Positions 43,380-49,930 of a stretch of 64,000 nt of DNA are shown here, piece by piece. Position 1 is the stretch's first letter, and each line of letters begins with the position of its first letter. A program made the translations under genes and the position numbers. The stretch covers positions 310,001-374,000 of the forward strand of contig NZ_QYUK01000016.1 of the NCBI RefSeq assembly GCF_003590945.1, in the 5' to 3' direction. Under the pieces are notes generated by a model. It made no database searches. It saw only the letters and a program-made list of their open reading frames with translations, and was not told where the DNA came from. This stretch comes from Oleomonas cavernae (lineage in GTDB: Bacteria > Pseudomonadota > Alphaproteobacteria > Zavarziniales > Zavarziniaceae).

Positions 43380-43513
43380 GCCCAAGACACAACGATCCGA
43401 CCTCGAAAGGCGCCCGGCCCGAATCGGGCCGGGCGCTTGGCCCCGCCGATTCGGCCGGCCGCCCGCGCCACGCGGGAATGAGAACATCTGCTGCCCAGGG
43501 GCTGCTTTCACCC

Positions 43514-43521
43514 CAACATGT
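43514..43521 (+). repeat. target-site duplication, left copy (CAACATGT)
   Basis: Eight bases CAACATGT lie immediately outside the left terminal inverted repeat and are repeated at 46199-46206 outside the right one. Eight-base duplications are characteristic of IS1595-family insertion. Confidence 0.85.
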
Positions 43522-43547
43522 GGGCACTATTATACATTGCGTACCCA
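43522..43547 (+). repeat. left terminal inverted repeat of the IS1595-type element
   Basis: Begins GGGCACTATTATACATTG and ends GTACCCA. It matches the right end except for a two-base gap and four substitutions. The embedded TATTAT (from 43528) could serve as part of an outward or inward promoter for the DUF3800 gene. Confidence 0.8.
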
Positions 43548-43555
43548 GGTGAAAA

Positions 43556-44398
43556 ATGAGTAAGCTATCGCGTGATATCTCCATTTCGGCGCTAGCTGAT
43601 CTTGTGCACGGCGCCGCCTCTCGATGGAAGGCGCTGGCGCTGCTACAGGCTTATTTTGACGAGTCCGGCACCCACGGCTCGGCGAGCATCGCGGCAATTG
43701 CGGGATATGTGGCCGATCAGGCTACTTGGTCTGCACTAGAGGCGGAATGGCGCGCGGCCCAGCCGGCCTATGCTCCTGTATTTCACATGAGCCCCTGCAT
43801 CAGCGGGCACCGGGAATACCATGGAATCCCTGAAACCGAGCGCCATGATCTGATCGTTCGTCTCTCGAAGATATTGGAAGCGCATCCGGTGCGGGCGATA
43901 TGGTCCGCAGTCGTTATTGAAGATTGGGAGAACGAGGCGAAAGACGCGGCGTTTCTGTCTAAGTTTCCCAAGCCGTTTGATCTGTGCTTCCGCCATATCG
44001 TCTGGCAACTGCGCAATTGGTCGATCAGTCATTGCAACGGAGAGGAAATTGCACCCGTCTTTGCACTGAATGACGAATACCAGAAGCGAATGTCAGAAGT
44101 TGGTGCCGCGATCCAGGCCCACCCTAGCTATCTGAATGTCTTGGGAGGACTGTCCTTCTACCCGCCTTCAAAAGTGGTGCCGCTACAAACGGCGGACTTT
44201 CTGGCCTACGAGGTCTGTAAGCATTGGGATAATCATGTGTATGGGCCGCCAATCACGCTTGCTAATAGCGGATACAGGAACGTCTTTGTTAACGCCACGA
44301 CGGGTCATCAGTCAGGAGGTTGCTTTGCCGATCTTGGACTAAAGAACGCCATTTGCCAATTTAAGCAGACGGGCAGCTTCTTTGGCGAGAGTTTTTAA
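43556..44398 (+). CDS. DUF3800 domain protein, IS cargo
   Basis: A 280-residue protein starting eight bases after the left inverted repeat. DUF3800 marks are the acidic LQAYFDESGTHGSASIAAIAGYV near residue 30 (RNase H-like first strand with Asp-Glu), AEWRAAQPAYAPVFHMS, a middle ALNDEYQ and the late VVPLQTADFLAYEV with its Gln-x-x-Asp. The fold is predicted to be RNase H-like, but the molecular function is unknown. Codon use is less GC-biased than in chromosomal neighbours. Position inside the inverted repeats makes it transposon cargo. It converges on a gene on the other strand through a shared palindrome at 44413. Confidence 0.85.
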   Translation: MSKLSRDISISALADLVHGAASRWKALALLQAYFDESGTHGSASIAAIAGYVADQATWSALEAEWRAAQPAYAPVFHMSPCISGHREYHGIPETERHDLIVRLSKILEAHPVRAIWSAVVIEDWENEAKDAAFLSKFPKPFDLCFRHIVWQLRNWSISHCNGEEIAPVFALNDEYQKRMSEVGAAIQAHPSYLNVLGGLSFYPPSKVVPLQTADFLAYEVCKHWDNHVYGPPITLANSGYRNVFVNATTGHQSGGCFADLGLKNAICQFKQTGSFFGESF

Positions 44399-44412
44399 TT
44401 ATTGTATTGTGT

Positions 44413-44436
44413 GCCCCTCACTCATGAGTGAGGGGC
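44413..44436. terminator. perfect palindrome between convergent IS cargo genes
   Basis: GCCCCTCACTCA and TGAGTGAGGGGC form a perfect 24-base palindrome. It sits 14 bases after the DUF3800 stop and overlaps the last codons and stop (44418-44420) of the minus-strand gene. It probably acts as a bidirectional terminator. Confidence 0.7.
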
Positions 44437-44801
44437 GCAAAGCTCTTTTCCTTGATTGCCTGTTTCACGTCATAAATGAGACTCTCCCATACACCATCAG
44501 GACGATAGACGTTAAAGTCTATGGCTCGCATGTACTCGGGATAGGCATCGGCACGAAGGCGATACCCCTCATTCTCCATGCAGAGAGTGATCAAATAGGC
44601 TTCCTGTTCGGTGATGAACGATGATGCTCGAACCTGTACAATACAGCGTCGGATTGCTCTCTGGATATCATCTGGGAAATCTGTGATTACCAATACGACT
44701 CCGAGAGCGCCGGCGGCTGGGATGATAGAGACGGCAGCACAGAAGGCTAAAAGGATCGCAATACCGATCGCATCGCGCACGCTATCCAGGAATTTCAGCA
44801 T
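44418..44801 (-). CDS. small membrane protein of unknown function, IS cargo
   Basis: A 127-residue protein not recognised as a known family. The N-terminus has one long or two short hydrophobic helices (AIGIAILLAFCAAVSIIPAA, then LGVVLVITD); the remainder is a soluble, mixed-charge domain (DDIQRAIRRCIVQVRAS; EAYLITLCMENEGYRL; GVWESLIYDVKQAIKEK). The ribosome site GGGGAG stands eight bases before ATG 44801 and lies inside a hairpin. The long structured stretch directly upstream makes this a candidate for leader-controlled expression. An overlapping plus-strand frame at 44382-44624 is less convincing. Confidence 0.65.
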   Translation of the reverse strand: MLKFLDSVRDAIGIAILLAFCAAVSIIPAAGALGVVLVITDFPDDIQRAIRRCIVQVRASSFITEQEAYLITLCMENEGYRLRADAYPEYMRAIDFNVYRPDGVWESLIYDVKQAIKEKSFAPLTHE

Positions 44802-44808
44802 ATATTTG

Positions 44809-44832
44809 ACTCCCCACCGTCAGTCGGGGAGT
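44809..44832 (-). promoter_or_regulatory. hairpin covering the ribosome site of the IS membrane-protein gene
   Basis: On the minus strand ACTCCCC (44832-44826) pairs perfectly with GGGGAGT (44815-44809) across a ten-base loop. GGGGAG is the Shine-Dalgarno sequence of the gene starting at 44801, so folding would hide it. This resembles translational control by leader structure. Confidence 0.55.
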
Positions 44833-44833
44833 T

Positions 44834-44967
44834 GAGAAAGCCGCAGCATGTGGGCTCGCGTTGACCTTTAGGCTTGCGCCCTGGACATACGTCAACGCCT
44901 CCCCGACCGATACAGGTCGAGGAGTGCTTTTGCGGCTAGCACTCGCGCCGCATGCTGCGGGGTTCTC
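44834..44967 (-). ncRNA. candidate structured RNA (branched, cloverleaf-like) inside the IS
   Basis: The region folds on paper into a closed multi-branch structure. Outer stem: GAGAA/TTCTC (44834-44838 with 44963-44967), a 2x2 internal loop, then CCGCAGCATG/CATGCTGCGG (44841-44850 with 44951-44960), plus a short extension. Inside are three stems: GCGTTGAC/GTCAACGC (44858-44865 with 44891-44898), CGACC/GGTCG (44904-44908 with 44915-44919) and AGTGCT/AGCACT (44923-44928 with 44938-44943). On the minus strand the first inner arm ends in a GGC-GCAA-GCC hairpin with a GNRA tetraloop, which favours that strand. It lies in the leader of the gene at 44801. No known RNA family was recognised. Confidence 0.45.
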
Positions 44968-44975
44968 ACGCCCCA

Positions 44976-44993
44976 GAAAGGAGTTGTCCTTTC
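44976..44993 (-). terminator. hairpin after the transposase-small ORF unit
   Basis: GAAAGGA and TCCTTTC pair perfectly over seven bases around GTTG (CAAC on the minus strand), 24 bases downstream of the small ORF stop. No U-run follows, so it may be an RNA-processing or attenuation element instead of a full terminator. Confidence 0.4.
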
Positions 44994-45016
44994 CGAGGCT
45001 GAAATTAGCGGATCGT

Positions 45017-45190
45017 TTACTTGGCGTCCATGCGACGTTTTTTGGGCGTGGCGAGCTTTCTCAGCACACGCTCAAAGTGTTCGTTTCCATCGTTGGGACT
45101 TAGATCGCCAGCGGCCGCCATGTCGTCGATGGCCTTTCGGAATCGCTCCGATTGCTCCGCCTGCGATAGGTCCGCCTTCTTCTTTGGCAT
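45017..45190 (-). CDS. 57-residue accessory protein of the IS1595-type element
   Basis: A very short frame directly behind the transposase: ATG 45190 follows the transposase stop by five bases, so the two are likely co-translated. The product starts MPKKKADLSQAEQSERFRKA and ends FERVLRKLATPKKRRMDAK, giving a basic, helical protein with an SQAEQSERF...A pattern. Similar tiny proteins with an early QSxRF and late F...L.K.A are, to my recollection, common next to IS1595-type transposases; their role is unknown. Lysine/arginine-rich ends suggest nucleic-acid contact. Confidence 0.7.
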   Translation of the reverse strand: MPKKKADLSQAEQSERFRKAIDDMAAAGDLSPNDGNEHFERVLRKLATPKKRRMDAK

Positions 45191-45195
45191 CGGTT

Positions 45196-46134
45196 TCAGG
45201 CCTCGCCATTAGCTGCTGCATACTTGAGCCGCTTGCCGACGACCCCCAGAAGGGCAACGTTGGCGCGGGCGGCATCGTCAGTGCCAAGAGCCTGACGGTT
45301 GCTGTAGCGGAAATCAAACTCTGCCAGATAGCGGTGCAGGTGCTTAGATGAGCAATGCTGATAGATGCCCTTCATGCCGCGTTTGAAGATGCTGAAATAG
45401 CCCTCGATGGTGTTGGTATGGACGGTGCGATCCGCGCGGCTGACGTACTCGTCCTTGCCGTGGTTGACGCTGCCATGGTCGGCGAAATTCCAGCCGATCG
45501 CCTTGTAGACACCGGCTTCATCGGTCATCAGGCGCGCCTCGCGGGCGATGTTCGCCTCCAGCACAGGGGCGATGCTGGCAATGCTGATCTCGTTGATGAC
45601 GACGCTGCGCGCGGCGCCGGTCTCGCGGTCGACAAGGGAAAGAACCTTGTTCATGTGAGCGATGCGGCGCCCCTTCTTGATCTTGTGCGCCTTGGTCTTG
45701 TCGGTGCCGAGGAAAGTCTCGTCAACCTCCACGGCGCCCCCGTTCGAGCCCATGGGCGACGGGTTGTTAGAGCGCATCGCCTCGCGGATACGGTGGCTCA
45801 TGAACCAAGCGGTCTTGAGGGTCACGTCCAAGGTGCGGTGAAGCTGGTTGGCCGAGATGCCTTTCTTGGAGGCGGACATCAGGTAAATGGCCTGAAGCCA
45901 CAGGTTCATCTTGACGTGGCTGGCCTCGAAGATGGTCCCGATCTTCACGGTGAAGGGCTTGCGGCACTGGTAGCACTTGTAGGCGCCAATCCGGGTCGAA
46001 GTGCCCTTCATCTTCGAGATGCGCTCCACCCCGCCACAGTGCGGGCAGACCGGACCAGTCGGCCAAACGCGGGCCTCGACAAAGGCATAAGCCGCTTCTT
46101 CATCGTGGAAGTGATTCGCCGAAAGATGTGACAT
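45196..46134 (-). CDS. IS1595-family transposase (ISXO2-like)
   Basis: A 312-residue DDE-type transposase. The N-terminus has a zinc ribbon, CPHCGGVERI...CYQCRKPFTVK, and an HTH-like helical segment (KKGISANQLHRTLDVTLKTA). The catalytic core follows: first Asp in AVEVDETFLGTDK, second in MTDEAGVYKAIG, and the final acidic/Asn position in HTNTIEGYFSIFKRGMKGIY, the ISXO2-like DDE signature. It is full length and undamaged, and both element ends are present, so activity is plausible. ATG 46134 lies 41 bases inside the right inverted repeat. Confidence 0.92.
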   Translation of the reverse strand: MSHLSANHFHDEEAAYAFVEARVWPTGPVCPHCGGVERISKMKGTSTRIGAYKCYQCRKPFTVKIGTIFEASHVKMNLWLQAIYLMSASKKGISANQLHRTLDVTLKTAWFMSHRIREAMRSNNPSPMGSNGGAVEVDETFLGTDKTKAHKIKKGRRIAHMNKVLSLVDRETGAARSVVINEISIASIAPVLEANIAREARLMTDEAGVYKAIGWNFADHGSVNHGKDEYVSRADRTVHTNTIEGYFSIFKRGMKGIYQHCSSKHLHRYLAEFDFRYSNRQALGTDDAARANVALLGVVGKRLKYAAANGEA

Positions 46135-46174: not shown

Positions 46175-46198
46175 TGGGTACGTCAAGTATAATATCCC
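46175..46198 (-). repeat. right terminal inverted repeat of the IS1595-type element
   Basis: Read inward on the minus strand it begins GGGATATTATACTTGACG and ends TACCCA. The TTGACG inside may help drive the transposase. Confidence 0.8.
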
Positions 46199-46206
46199 CA
46201 ACATGT
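46199..46206 (+). repeat. target-site duplication, right copy (CAACATGT)
   Basis: Identical to 43514-43521, directly abutting the right inverted repeat. Confidence 0.85.
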
Positions 46207-46346
46207 GGTGGCTCAGACGAATCGGGAACATTTTTCGCGACTCCTAGATTTCGGTTGTGGATAACATTGGCACCACGACCTGTAGAGATCGGGGACAAGT
46301 CTGATTTGGCAATCCAATCAGCATCTTGTGTTCGGGAACGCGGTGG

Positions 46347-46453: not shown

Positions 46454-49400
46454 ATGGTGTCGATCGCGCCGATCAGCCAGCAGATCTGGGACATGAAGTA
46501 CCGCTTGAAGGCCCCGGACGGGACATCGGTGGACGCCACGATCGAAGACACCTGGGCCCGGGTGGCCAGTTCGCTCGCCGTGGTCGAGGCGCCGGAGGTG
46601 CGCGCCCATTGGGAGGCCGCGTTCGCCTCCGCCATGGCCGATTTCCGCTTCATGCCGGCCGGCCGCATCATCGCCGGGGCGGGCACCGCGCGCCGCGTCA
46701 CCCTGTTCAACTGCTTCGTCATGGGCACGGTGCCCGACGACATGTCGGGCATTTTCGAGCATCTGCGCGAGGCCGCCTTGACCATGCAGCAGGGCGGCGG
46801 CATCGGTTACGACTTCTCGACCCTGCGGCCCAAGGGCGCCGCGGTGAAGGGCGTGGGCGCCGATGCCTCCGGCCCCCTGCCGTTCATGGACGTGTGGGAC
46901 GCCATGTGCCGCACCATCATGTCGGCCGGCCATAGGCGCGGCGCCATGATGGCGACCATGCGCTGCGACCACCCGGATATCGAGGCCTTCATCGCCGCCA
47001 AGCGCGACCCCGGCCGCCTGCGCATGTTCAACCTCTCGGTCCTGGTCATCGACCCGTTCATGGCCGCGGTCGAGGCCGACGAGCCCTGGAACCTGACCTT
47101 CGACGGCATGGTCTACAAGACGGTGCGCGCCCGCGACCTGTGGGACACGATCATGCGCGCCACCTACGCCTATGCCGAACCCGGCGTGATCTTCATCGAC
47201 CGGATCAACCGGCTGAATAACCTGTGGTACGCCGAGACGATCAGCGCCACCAACCCCTGCATCACCGCCGACACCTGGGTTACGACCACCCGGGGCCCGC
47301 GGCAGGTTGCCGACCTCCTCGGCCGGCCTTTCGCGGCACTGGTCGACGGCGTCGGCCACGACAGCGATGGCCGGGGCTTCTTTCCCACCGGGCGCAAGCC
47401 GGTGGTCGACTTGCTCACCGACGACGGCTTCCGCCTGCGCCTTACCGCCGATCACAAGGTGCTGAAAATCGCGGCCAGGACGCGGTTCCGCCGTGAGACC
47501 GTTTGGGCGCCGGCCGGCTCCCTGCTGCCCGGCGACGAGGTGGTGCTGCACGATCACGGCGCGGCGGCCGAATGGCCGGGCGAAGGCAATGCGGGCGAGG
47601 GCCTGTTGCTGGGCCTGCTGGTCGGCGACGGCACGTTGAAGGCGGAGGCGGGCGTGCTCAGCGTCTGGCCCCAGGCGGCGGCCGTGAACGGCAGCGACCT
47701 GTCCCCTGCCACCCGGGCCCTGATGGCCGAGGCGGAGAATGCCGCCCGCGCCCTGCCCCATCGCAGCGATTTTGCCGGCTGGGTGGAAATTGCCGGCCGG
47801 GGCGAATATCGCCTGAAGATGAAGGCCCTGGCCGATCTGGCCGCCCGCTTCGGCATGGCGCCCGGCAACAAGACCGTGACGCCCGCCATCGAGCGAGCCT
47901 CGTCCGACTTCCAGAAAGCGTTTTTGCGCGCCCTGTTCGATTGCGACGGCAGCGTCCAGGGCACCCAGGAGAAGGGCATCAGCGTTCGCCTGGCCCAGAG
48001 CGACCGCGAGATGCTGGTCGCGGTACAGCGCATGCTGGCGCGCTTCGGCGTCATCAGCCGCCTCTATGACCGCCGCCCGGCCGGCAGCACCCTGCTGCCC
48101 GACGGCAGGGGCGGCCAGCGCCACTATCCGACCCAGGCCCAGTTCGAGCTGATCGTGGCCCGGGCCAATGTCCTGCGTTTCCGCGACCGGATCGGTTTCA
48201 CCGACGTCGCCAAGCAGCATCGCCTGGACGGCCAGATCGCCGCCTTCAAGCGCGCACCCAATCGCGAGGCCTTCGTCGCCACGGTGCGCGCGGTCGAGCC
48301 GGCCGGCGAAGCCGATGTCTTCGACGTCAGCGTACCCGGCATCAACGCCTTCGATGCGGGCGGCCTCTATGTCCACAATTGCGGCGAGCAGCCATTGCCC
48401 CCCTATGGCGCCTGCCTGTTGGGGTCGGTCAATCTGGCCCGGCTGGTGGAGCGGCCGTTCGAGGCCGATGCGGCGATCGACATGGCCGAACTCGACCGGG
48501 TGGTGCGCCTGGCCATCCGCATGATGGACAATGTCGTCGATACCTCGAACTTCCCGCTGCCGCAGCAGCAGGCAGAGGCGACCACCAAGCGGCGCATCGG
48601 CCTAGGCGTCACCGGCCTGGCCGACGCCCTGATCATGTGCGGCGCGCGTTACGGCGGGCCGCAGGCCCTGCGCCTGATCGAGGGCTGGATGCACGCGATC
48701 CAGCGCGCGGCCTACCTCGCCAGCGTCGATCTCGCCCGCGAGAAGGGGCCGTTCCCGCTGTTCGACCGCGACAAGTATCTGGCGGGTGAATCGATCAAGG
48801 CGCTGGACGCCGATATCCGCGAGGCCATCGCCAAGCACGGCATCCGCAATGCCCTGCTCACCTCGATCGCGCCCACCGGCACGATTTCCTTGTTCGCCGA
48901 CAATGTCTCGTCCGGCCTGGAGCCTGTGTTCTCCTTCGCCTATAGCCGCAAGGTGCTGATGCCCGACGGCACCAGGCGGGAGGAGGAAGTCACCGATTAC
49001 GCCTATCGCCTGTGGCGCCGCCTGAAGGGCGAGGATGCGCCCCTGCCCGACTATTTCGTCGATGCCCAGGTGCTTTCCCCGGCCGACCATGTGCGGGTCC
49101 AGGCGGTGGTGCAGAAATACGTCGACAGTTCGATCTCCAAGACCATCAACTGCCCCGAGGACATCGGCTTCGAGGCCTTCAAGGACATCTACCTGCTGGC
49201 CTGGGCGCAGGGCTGCAAGGGCTGCACCACCTATCGTCCCAACGACGTAACCGGTTCGGTTCTTTCGCTCACGCCCAAGAAGGAAGAGAAGAAACCCGCC
49301 GAGCCGCAGTTGCAGCTTGAATCGGCCGCCGCCACGGCCCGCCACGAGGATATCTACGAGGCCGGCGGCGTGGTCTACATGACCAAGCCCCTGGACCGGC

Positions 49401-49930
49401 CGGAAGTCCTGCCGGGCAAGACCTACAAGGTGCGCTGGCCCGAATCCGAGCATGCCCTCTACATCACCGTGAACGATGTGGTGCAGGACGGCCGGCGGCG
49501 GCCGTTCGAGGTCTTCATCAATTCCAAGAACATGGAGCATTACGCCTGGACCGTGGCGCTCACCCGCATGATCTCGGCGGTGTTCAGGCGCGGCGGCGAC
49601 GTCTCCTTCGTGGTCGACGAGCTCAAGGCCGTGTTCGATCCGCGCGGCGGCCACTGGATGCAGGGGCGCTATGTCCCCTCGCTGCTCGCCGCGATCGGCG
49701 AAGTGATCGAACAGCACCTGATCGACATCGGCTTCATCCAGAAGACGCAAGTCGAACTGCCTGAGAAGTTCCAGCGCGCGATGGACATGGGCAGCGCCGA
49801 GGCCGGTGGCGGCAAGGCCACCGGCAGCCTGAAGGGCCTGCGCGGCTGCCCCCGCTGCAGCCAGCCCAGCCTGGTGCGCCAGGAAGGCTGCGACACCTGC
49901 CTGTCCTGCGGCTATTCCAAGTGCGGGTGA
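46454..49930 (+). CDS. nrdJ: adenosylcobalamin-dependent (class II) ribonucleotide reductase with in-frame intein
   Basis: Reduces ribonucleotides to deoxyribonucleotides with a cobalamin-generated thiyl radical, independent of oxygen. The precursor is 1158 residues; removing the intein (residues 269-642) leaves 784. Host motifs: [23 protein letters not shown] (first redox Cys), [44 protein letters not shown] across the splice point, [14 protein letters not shown] and [20 protein letters not shown]. The C-terminus has a CPRCSQP...[12 protein letters not shown] zinc/redox tail. The PduO-type adenosyltransferase at 2896 can supply the cofactor. Without splicing the active-site loop would be split, so the enzyme depends on the intein. 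Confidence 0.95.
47258..48379 (+). other. intein with LAGLIDADG endonuclease domain inside NrdJ
   Basis: A 374-residue insertion in NrdJ. It begins with the nucleophile Cys (CITADTWV, block A), has block B with the TxxH signature TADH at intein residues 63-66, two dodecapeptide motifs of a LAGLIDADG homing endonuclease ([11 protein letters not shown] at about 115-125; [11 protein letters not shown] at about 222-232, each with its acidic residue), and ends [16 protein letters not shown]...VHN, followed by extein Cys. The terminal His-Asn and next Cys are the residues needed for splicing. All key residues are present, so both splicing and homing may work. Confidence 0.93.

Follow-up and report, generated by a model that had tools for sequence, protein, structure and literature searches.

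The 64,000-nucleotide (nt) stretch of the Oleomonas cavernae genome analyzed here, hereafter called the window, contains a genuine and conserved RNA fold on its minus strand, located inside a transposon of the IS1595 family and directly before an open reading frame (ORF) for a membrane-like protein. This RNA is a leader found before many unrelated genes of phages, plasmids, and transposons. Judged by its aligned scaffold, it is a divergent relative, or sister group, of the small RNA (sRNA) sRNA-Xcc1 (RF02221), falling below the cutoff of that Rfam family. We consider it reasonably probable that the RNA is a leader that masks the ribosome-binding site (RBS) of the next gene and works similarly to the C4 RNA of phages P1 and P7 or to a riboswitch expression platform. 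Its predicted pairings indicate that expression of the following gene is probably turned on or off according to whether the RBS is exposed or covered.

Folding of positions 44800-45020 as minus-strand RNA gave -107.7 kcal/mol (z -7.05), with none of 200 dinucleotide shuffles as good, and the plus-strand fold of the same positions gave -99.1 kcal/mol (z -5.35). The stems described in the original prediction were all found in the sequence. The outer stem in the window includes ten consecutive pairs (CCGCAGCAUG / CAUGCUGCGG, within 44948-44969 and 44841-44854). The outer stem encloses a P2 hairpin (44922-44944), a hairpin formed by two strands that we call a and b (44899-44924), and P4 (44858-44898), which has the predicted GCAA loop on the minus strand, the relevant one. 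A further hairpin had been described at 44976-44993; it is present, though as part of a larger 5' hairpin, P0 (44970-44999 from fold and coordinates; GCCUCGGAAAGGA-CAAC-UCCUUUCUGGGGC), which takes in UGGGG at the base of the outer stem P1. A 5' hairpin ahead of UGGGGC was also seen in many homologues. The RNA slightly exceeds the limits first proposed: it extends to approximately 45000 and, in the direction of the downstream ORF, into the Shine-Dalgarno sequence (SD) of that ORF. No long ORF occupies this stretch, as predicted.

All further elements of the RNA lie on the minus strand. Strand U (GUGAGAACCCCGCAGCAUGCGG, 44948-44969) provides the 5' side of P1, the long outer stem, and is also the partner of the P5 loop. 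P2 (GAGUGCU/AGCACUC), recognized from sequence and fold, is a variable region. Strand a (CUCCUCGACC, 44915-44924) forms 10 pairs with strand b (GGUCGGGGAG, 44899-44908) at -17.6 kcal/mol and would compete for it with a third strand, c (CUCCCCGACU, 44822-44831). Strand b is the 5' side of a conserved b:c pseudoknot helix and aligns with RF02221 at model position 1, where the sRNA-Xcc1 model begins. The two strands of P4 (44891-44898 and 44858-44865), both supported by covariation, flank a conserved core (44866-44890, GUAUGUCC AGG-GCGCAAG-CCU AAAG), in which an asymmetric internal loop surrounds the GCAA hairpin. They are followed by the P5/L hairpin with its site-specific loop strand (44841-44854), a helix likewise included in the covariation analysis, and by the P1 3' strand (CUUUCUCA, 44833-44840). 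The best partner of this loop in the window is U (CCACAUGCUGCGG / CCGCAGCAUGCGG), and pairing of U with L plus the P1 3' strand (44833-44854) reaches -30.4 kcal/mol. Two alternative partners are available to strand c: strand b (-18.9 kcal/mol) and the SD preceding the cargo ORF (GGUGGGGAG, 44810-44818; -14.4 kcal/mol). The c:SD pairing corresponds to the hairpin that had been predicted to hide the RBS of the cargo gene, and it consists of 7 to 8 pairs directly before the ATG at 44801.

Analysis of compensatory changes, the check proposed with the original prediction of a structured RNA, was strongly positive. Among 22 seed sequences, we counted 86 cells changed on both sides compared to 29 in shuffles. 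In 99 model matches, 96.6% of pair cells were standard, double-sided changes occurred in 22 of 25 pairs, and 633 double-changed cells were found compared to 181 after shuffling, with 38-52% pairing in slid controls; this 99-copy alignment was fitted to the structure, whereas the seed alignment was not and had the same outcome. Double-sided changes occurred in 8 of the 10 pairs of the b:c helix (96.3% paired) and in 8 of 8 pairs of P4 (97.6% paired). Pairing of the P1 3' strand with upstream sequence, which lay outside model building, reached z=20 by permutation between sites, and a:b pairing across homologues reached z=8.4. Moreover, G-U cells exceeded A-C cells (295 versus 25), indicating that the transcript is the strand read here, which is the minus strand in the window. 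The bases of the internal loop AUGU.CCAG / AAAG form no pairs and hardly vary: A, U, C, A and AAA were identical in 99 of 99 copies, and G, U and the last G were kept in 97-98%. Such a loop is what would be expected of a binding or tertiary core, not of a mere hairpin. Conservation in other genomes places the window structure far beyond chance.

Approximately 190 further copies were gathered from Alphaproteobacteria, Magnetococcales, and viral contigs. Using blastn, we found similar DNA in 14 other genomes among 385 of the same class and in three Shinella plasmids. A covariance model of 89 positions, R1, had matches in 53 of the 385 class genomes, with up to 9 copies per genome, and in 47 of 398 genomes of the phylum. 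The pattern CGTATGTCCAGGN{3,9}CCTAAAGG had at least 120 matches in GTDB genomes; the taxa among the matches listed were nearly all Alphaproteobacteria (sphingomonads, Rhodobacteraceae, Rhizobiales, Rickettsiales), plus Magnetococcales. A similar pattern matched 19 viral contigs, and blastn searches of phage GenBank records with three different copies as the query gave no match. In the minus-strand reading only, the aligned relatives share a common core composed of GGUCGGGGAG (b), P4, GUAUGUCCAGG..CCUAAAG, the returning strand of P4, P5, the P1 3' strand, and CUCCCCGAnC (c).

Some copies, given here by locus number, showed features of their own. Tandem copies about 120 nt apart were present in L005 (1335-1542) and in G304 C6 (523859-524066). 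On one Shinella plasmid (L030, NZ_CP132306.1, 4671-5909), a group II intron with a maturase gene lies directly 5' of, and apparently inside, an RNA copy, whereas its sister plasmid (L028) carries the same RNA element without interruption. A type II hammerhead ribozyme (RF02276, 66 bits) was found in L062 (2894-2958, minus strand), about 1.3 kb from the RNA copy, and L013 and L014 each have an alphaproteobacterial transfer-messenger RNA gene at a distance of a few hundred bases from their copy. A second recurrent hairpin with GCGGGGGCGUACCGC, immediately after strand c and before the SD, was seen in sphingomonad and rhizobial copies (L003, L004, L028, L061, L065, and others).

The position of the copies relative to genes was examined using gene calls made by one simple ORF rule. 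A same-strand, SD-preceded ORF lay within 130 nt of 74% of 158 copies, whereas such an ORF was present at 12% of random positions and, on the divergent side, at 5% of the copies; the ORF start lay a median of 37 nt beyond the approximate end of c. The 125 best downstream ORFs fell into 67 unrelated protein clusters. Phage antirepressors (Ant, Rha, Bro-N, AntA) were frequent among them, together with DUF5818, DprA-like, and type IIG restriction proteins, candidate defense proteins, lipoproteins, and many unknown proteins; some were similar, as assigned by eye, to the DUF2285 antiactivator family of integrative and conjugative elements (ICEs) (PMC10359603). Padloc, Pfam, and PHROG scans of the downstream genes revealed no common function. 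The RNA is thus a leader, but not of one pathway. The earlier proposal of a leader that could hide the RBS of the membrane-protein gene in the window is supported.

The P5 loop has no conserved sequence. At 93 of the 125 sites, it formed at least 7 consecutive Watson-Crick pairs with the strand upstream of b (8.5 expected by permutation), and at 26 of the 125 sites it formed at least 7 pairs with the SD region of the next gene (1.0 expected; the highest value in 200 permutations was 5). When a segment within the ORF served as the control, 1 such site was found compared to 0.9 expected. In a comparison of pairing scores, the loop with upstream sequence reached z=21. Relatedness between sites is not eliminated by these permutation tests, although related sites also raise the permuted values; permutation between sites replaced a duplex-energy test based on mononucleotide shuffles, which had too little power. 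Examples of matching loop and SD regions are L078 (CCUUCGG/CCGAAGG), L067 (CCUGUAGC/GCUACAGG), and L189 (UCCACUGG/CCAGUGGA). The sites with a matching loop also include L086, where loop CCAUACGU pairs with ACGUAUGG both upstream and at the SD, and L254 (CUUGUUGC/GCAACAAG), a member of the RF02221 set, where upstream CCGAAAAccccuuCAACAAG and RBS CCGAAAAggagCAACAAG are both complementary to CUUGUUGcGGUUUUCGG. Words shared between the RBS region and the upstream strand exceeded expectation (z 6.1), indicating that the RBS mimics the upstream strand in the subset with loop:SD matching. The RBS of the window does not mimic U and resembles b instead (GGUGGGGAG versus CGGGGAG), which leaves c free to choose b or the SD; an SD resembling b was also seen in L002, L061, L065, L069, L207, and others. 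In all five multicopy genomes, loop:upstream pairing was on average better within a copy than with other copies. In low-GC relatives (L014, L015, L043, L051, L054, L055), an intrinsic terminator overlaps or abuts c, suggesting that c stands at a decision point in several lineages, with differing outputs.

The full RF02221 model (1-87) aligned in register with relatives of the window RNA at 27-43 bits, compared to a gathering cutoff of 53; the window copy gave no match to RF02221 even at E<=5, and R1 matched RF02221 loci weakly. Since the scaffold is shared and the scores stay below the cutoff, we regard the window RNA as a divergent sister of sRNA-Xcc1 and not as a member by the Rfam rule. The earlier statement that it resembles no family therefore holds in that no Rfam family reaches its cutoff for these copies, yet they share the sRNA-Xcc1 scaffold and differ in the core loop. 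Both RNAs have an outer b:c helix, P4 with an asymmetric internal loop, and a P5 hairpin (CCGUCUU..ACGG) followed by CUCCCCGnCCACC. The consensus structure of RF02221 (outer helix, P4 with hairpin, P5 hairpin) is found here, and the same helices covary. The leader position and the pairing of the loop with U and the RBS are also shared: in an independent set of 30 RF02221 loci over the Rfam cutoff, 27 of them usable, z values were 8.2 for loop:SD, 4.3 for loop:upstream, and 6.6 for P1:upstream. In contrast, the core loop reads AUGUCCAG..UAAAG in the window group and AAUACAAuA..GAAUA in sRNA-Xcc1. The genus to which the window belongs also has a copy with an sRNA-Xcc1-type core, positioned before a Rha-like gene (L023), and two copies with the window's core type (L209, L037) likewise precede Rha-like genes. 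In the Rfam scan of the window and loci, done with gathering and loose thresholds, HepC_CRE and Lambda_thermo matches were rejected as chance, and subthreshold sRNA-Xcc1 was left as the only relevant match.

In the mechanism that we propose, strand U would form a long stem with L (the P5 loop plus the P1 3' strand), enclosing P2, the a:b hairpin, and P4 with its invariant loop, and the b:c helix would cross P1 as a pseudoknot. On the 3' side, L and c could pair alternatively with the RBS of the gene directly downstream, which would result in two foldings with the RBS open or hidden. In the window, pairing of c with b would leave the RBS of the 127-amino-acid cargo ORF free, and pairing of c with the SD would hide it. 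RBS pairing would block translation, U pairing or b:c would relieve the block, and the balance may be set at the invariant core loop, whether by binding of a ligand or protein or by processing into a free ~89-nt sRNA. This arrangement is reminiscent of riboswitch expression platforms (of the translation type, and of the terminator type in low-GC lineages), in which mutually exclusive helices mask the SD or form an intrinsic terminator beside a conserved unpaired core. The RNA has a conserved aptamer-like core, a 5' leader position, and predicted competing helices; however, the genes that it would regulate share no pathway.

Several observations weigh against an RBS-masking leader. No promoter-like site was found in 44700-45250. 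Complementarity between loop and SD is limited to about a fifth of the sites, and in the five multicopy genomes loop:SD pairing was only slightly better within a copy than between copies, or not better, suggesting that RBS matching belongs to part of the family. The window loop has no match to the SD, and the masking proposed there rests on c:SD, whose covariation across sites was not clearly above permutation (14 versus 7.7, maximum of 14) because both sequences are GC-rich and constant. In addition, sRNA-Xcc1 is called a trans-acting sRNA in the title of Chen 2011 as cited in PMC12444791, an action that a pure cis model does not need.

Two versions of the mechanism fit these data, a riboswitch-like cis switch and a processed, C4-like antisense RNA, and the masking step is common to both. 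In the second version, which we regard as possible but doubtful, the b..c part (~89 nt) would be cut or terminated off without strand U and would bind its own downstream RBS in cis and in trans, so that antirepressors, toxins, and other cargo would be silenced in an immunity-type, copy-specific manner. Consistent with this notion, sRNA-Xcc1 is a discrete 88-nt RNA by rapid amplification of cDNA ends and Northern blotting (PMC2996969), is strongly transcribed in E. coli O157:H7 (89 nt, 40293 reads; PMC5331693), and was detected in several copies in Xylella (PMC12189769). The C4 antisense RNA of phages P1 and P7 (RF01695 and relatives) lies upstream of phage antirepressor genes, which are frequent neighbors here as well, and its loops are complementary to their RBSs, C4 binding around the RBS of ant (PMC12197685). 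Site-specific loop:RBS pairing of this kind was found in the 26 of 125 homologues and in RF02221 members, whereas in the window strand c, and not the loop, matches the SD. However, neither the window nor the scanned loci matched any C4 Rfam family, and the RNA described here differs from C4 in its pseudoknot, its invariant core, and its upstream decoy strand. A simple C4 model leaves the conserved U strand, which three quarters of the sites possess, without a function, and because this strand is so strongly kept, we prefer a cis leader for the window copy.

It is improbable that the RNA is a stand-alone sRNA or a mobile repeat (a miniature inverted-repeat transposable element or an attC-like DNA hairpin) that stands before genes by chance and acts elsewhere or not at all. 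The multiple copies per genome would suit such an element, as would the occurrence of sRNA-Xcc1 on integrons, transposons, and plasmids, including positions upstream of symE in Xanthomonas integrons (PMC12444791). In contrast, the 74% of sites before an SD-preceded ORF, the 12:1 excess of G-U over A-C, and the covariation of loop and SD fit a role at the RNA level on the next gene and largely refute this explanation. An integron attC site was ruled out by the same 12:1 ratio and by the position of the element before, not after, genes. It is very unlikely that the RNA serves DUF3800 or the IS1595 transposase as a guide or cofactor, a partnership also raised in the original prediction: all three occur in one element here and DUF3800 has been linked to putative noncoding RNAs (PMC10910872), but any DUF3800 match was found in only 7 of 24 RNA-bearing genomes and near the RNA in 2 of 24 (the window and G304, ~3 kb away), with no consistent linkage, other copies stand before the 67 unrelated clusters, and none of the Rfam motifs DUF3800-I to -XI, structured RNAs reported near DUF3800 genes, matched.

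Most previous readings of sRNA-Xcc1 and its relatives treat them as virulence-related sRNAs that act on targets in trans. Our data suggest instead that these RNAs act locally and cover the start site of the gene that follows, which often encodes a phage antirepressor or has another control function in a mobile element. The occurrence of two interchangeable core loops on the same scaffold suggests a swappable sensor. We tentatively propose that the window RNA and sRNA-Xcc1 may belong to one large, unrecognized superfamily of leader RNAs of phages, ICEs, plasmids, integrons, and transposons, each with an interchangeable sensor loop (at least 2 types) and a reprogrammable anti-RBS strand buffered by an upstream RBS mimic, such that one module could gate any mobile gene. 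If the local role is confirmed, one RNA module would control many unrelated mobile genes, its trigger would become a defined biochemical question, and the pairing rule would let targets be predicted from sequence alone.

The element carrying the RNA is an IS1595-family transposon, the sole IS1595 match in the assembly. Its transposase (45196-46134, minus strand) matched PF12762 at 9.8e-34 and the zinc ribbon PF12760, and its ends are imperfect terminal inverted repeats of 37 bp (left, 43511-43547, plus strand; right, 46175-46211, minus strand) with a repeated CCCCAACATGTGG, a direct repeat that overlaps the left one. The cargo consists of a DUF3800 protein (43556-44398, plus strand), barely over the Pfam cutoff (PF12686, 22 bits versus 21), and, convergent to it, the 127-amino-acid membrane-like protein (44418-44801, minus strand), for which no relatives were found in plasmids or 289 genomes. 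A small ORF of 57 amino acids (45017-45190, minus strand), seen in the sequence, lies between the transposase and the RNA. Between the convergent cargo ORFs, a near-perfect inverted repeat (TGTGCCCCTCACTCA/TGAGTGAGGGGCGCA, 44410-44439) is perhaps a shared terminator. Adjoining the transposon, an ORF of 1158 amino acids (46454-49930) appears, from its translation, to encode a vitamin B12-dependent ribonucleotide reductase-like protein interrupted by an intein.
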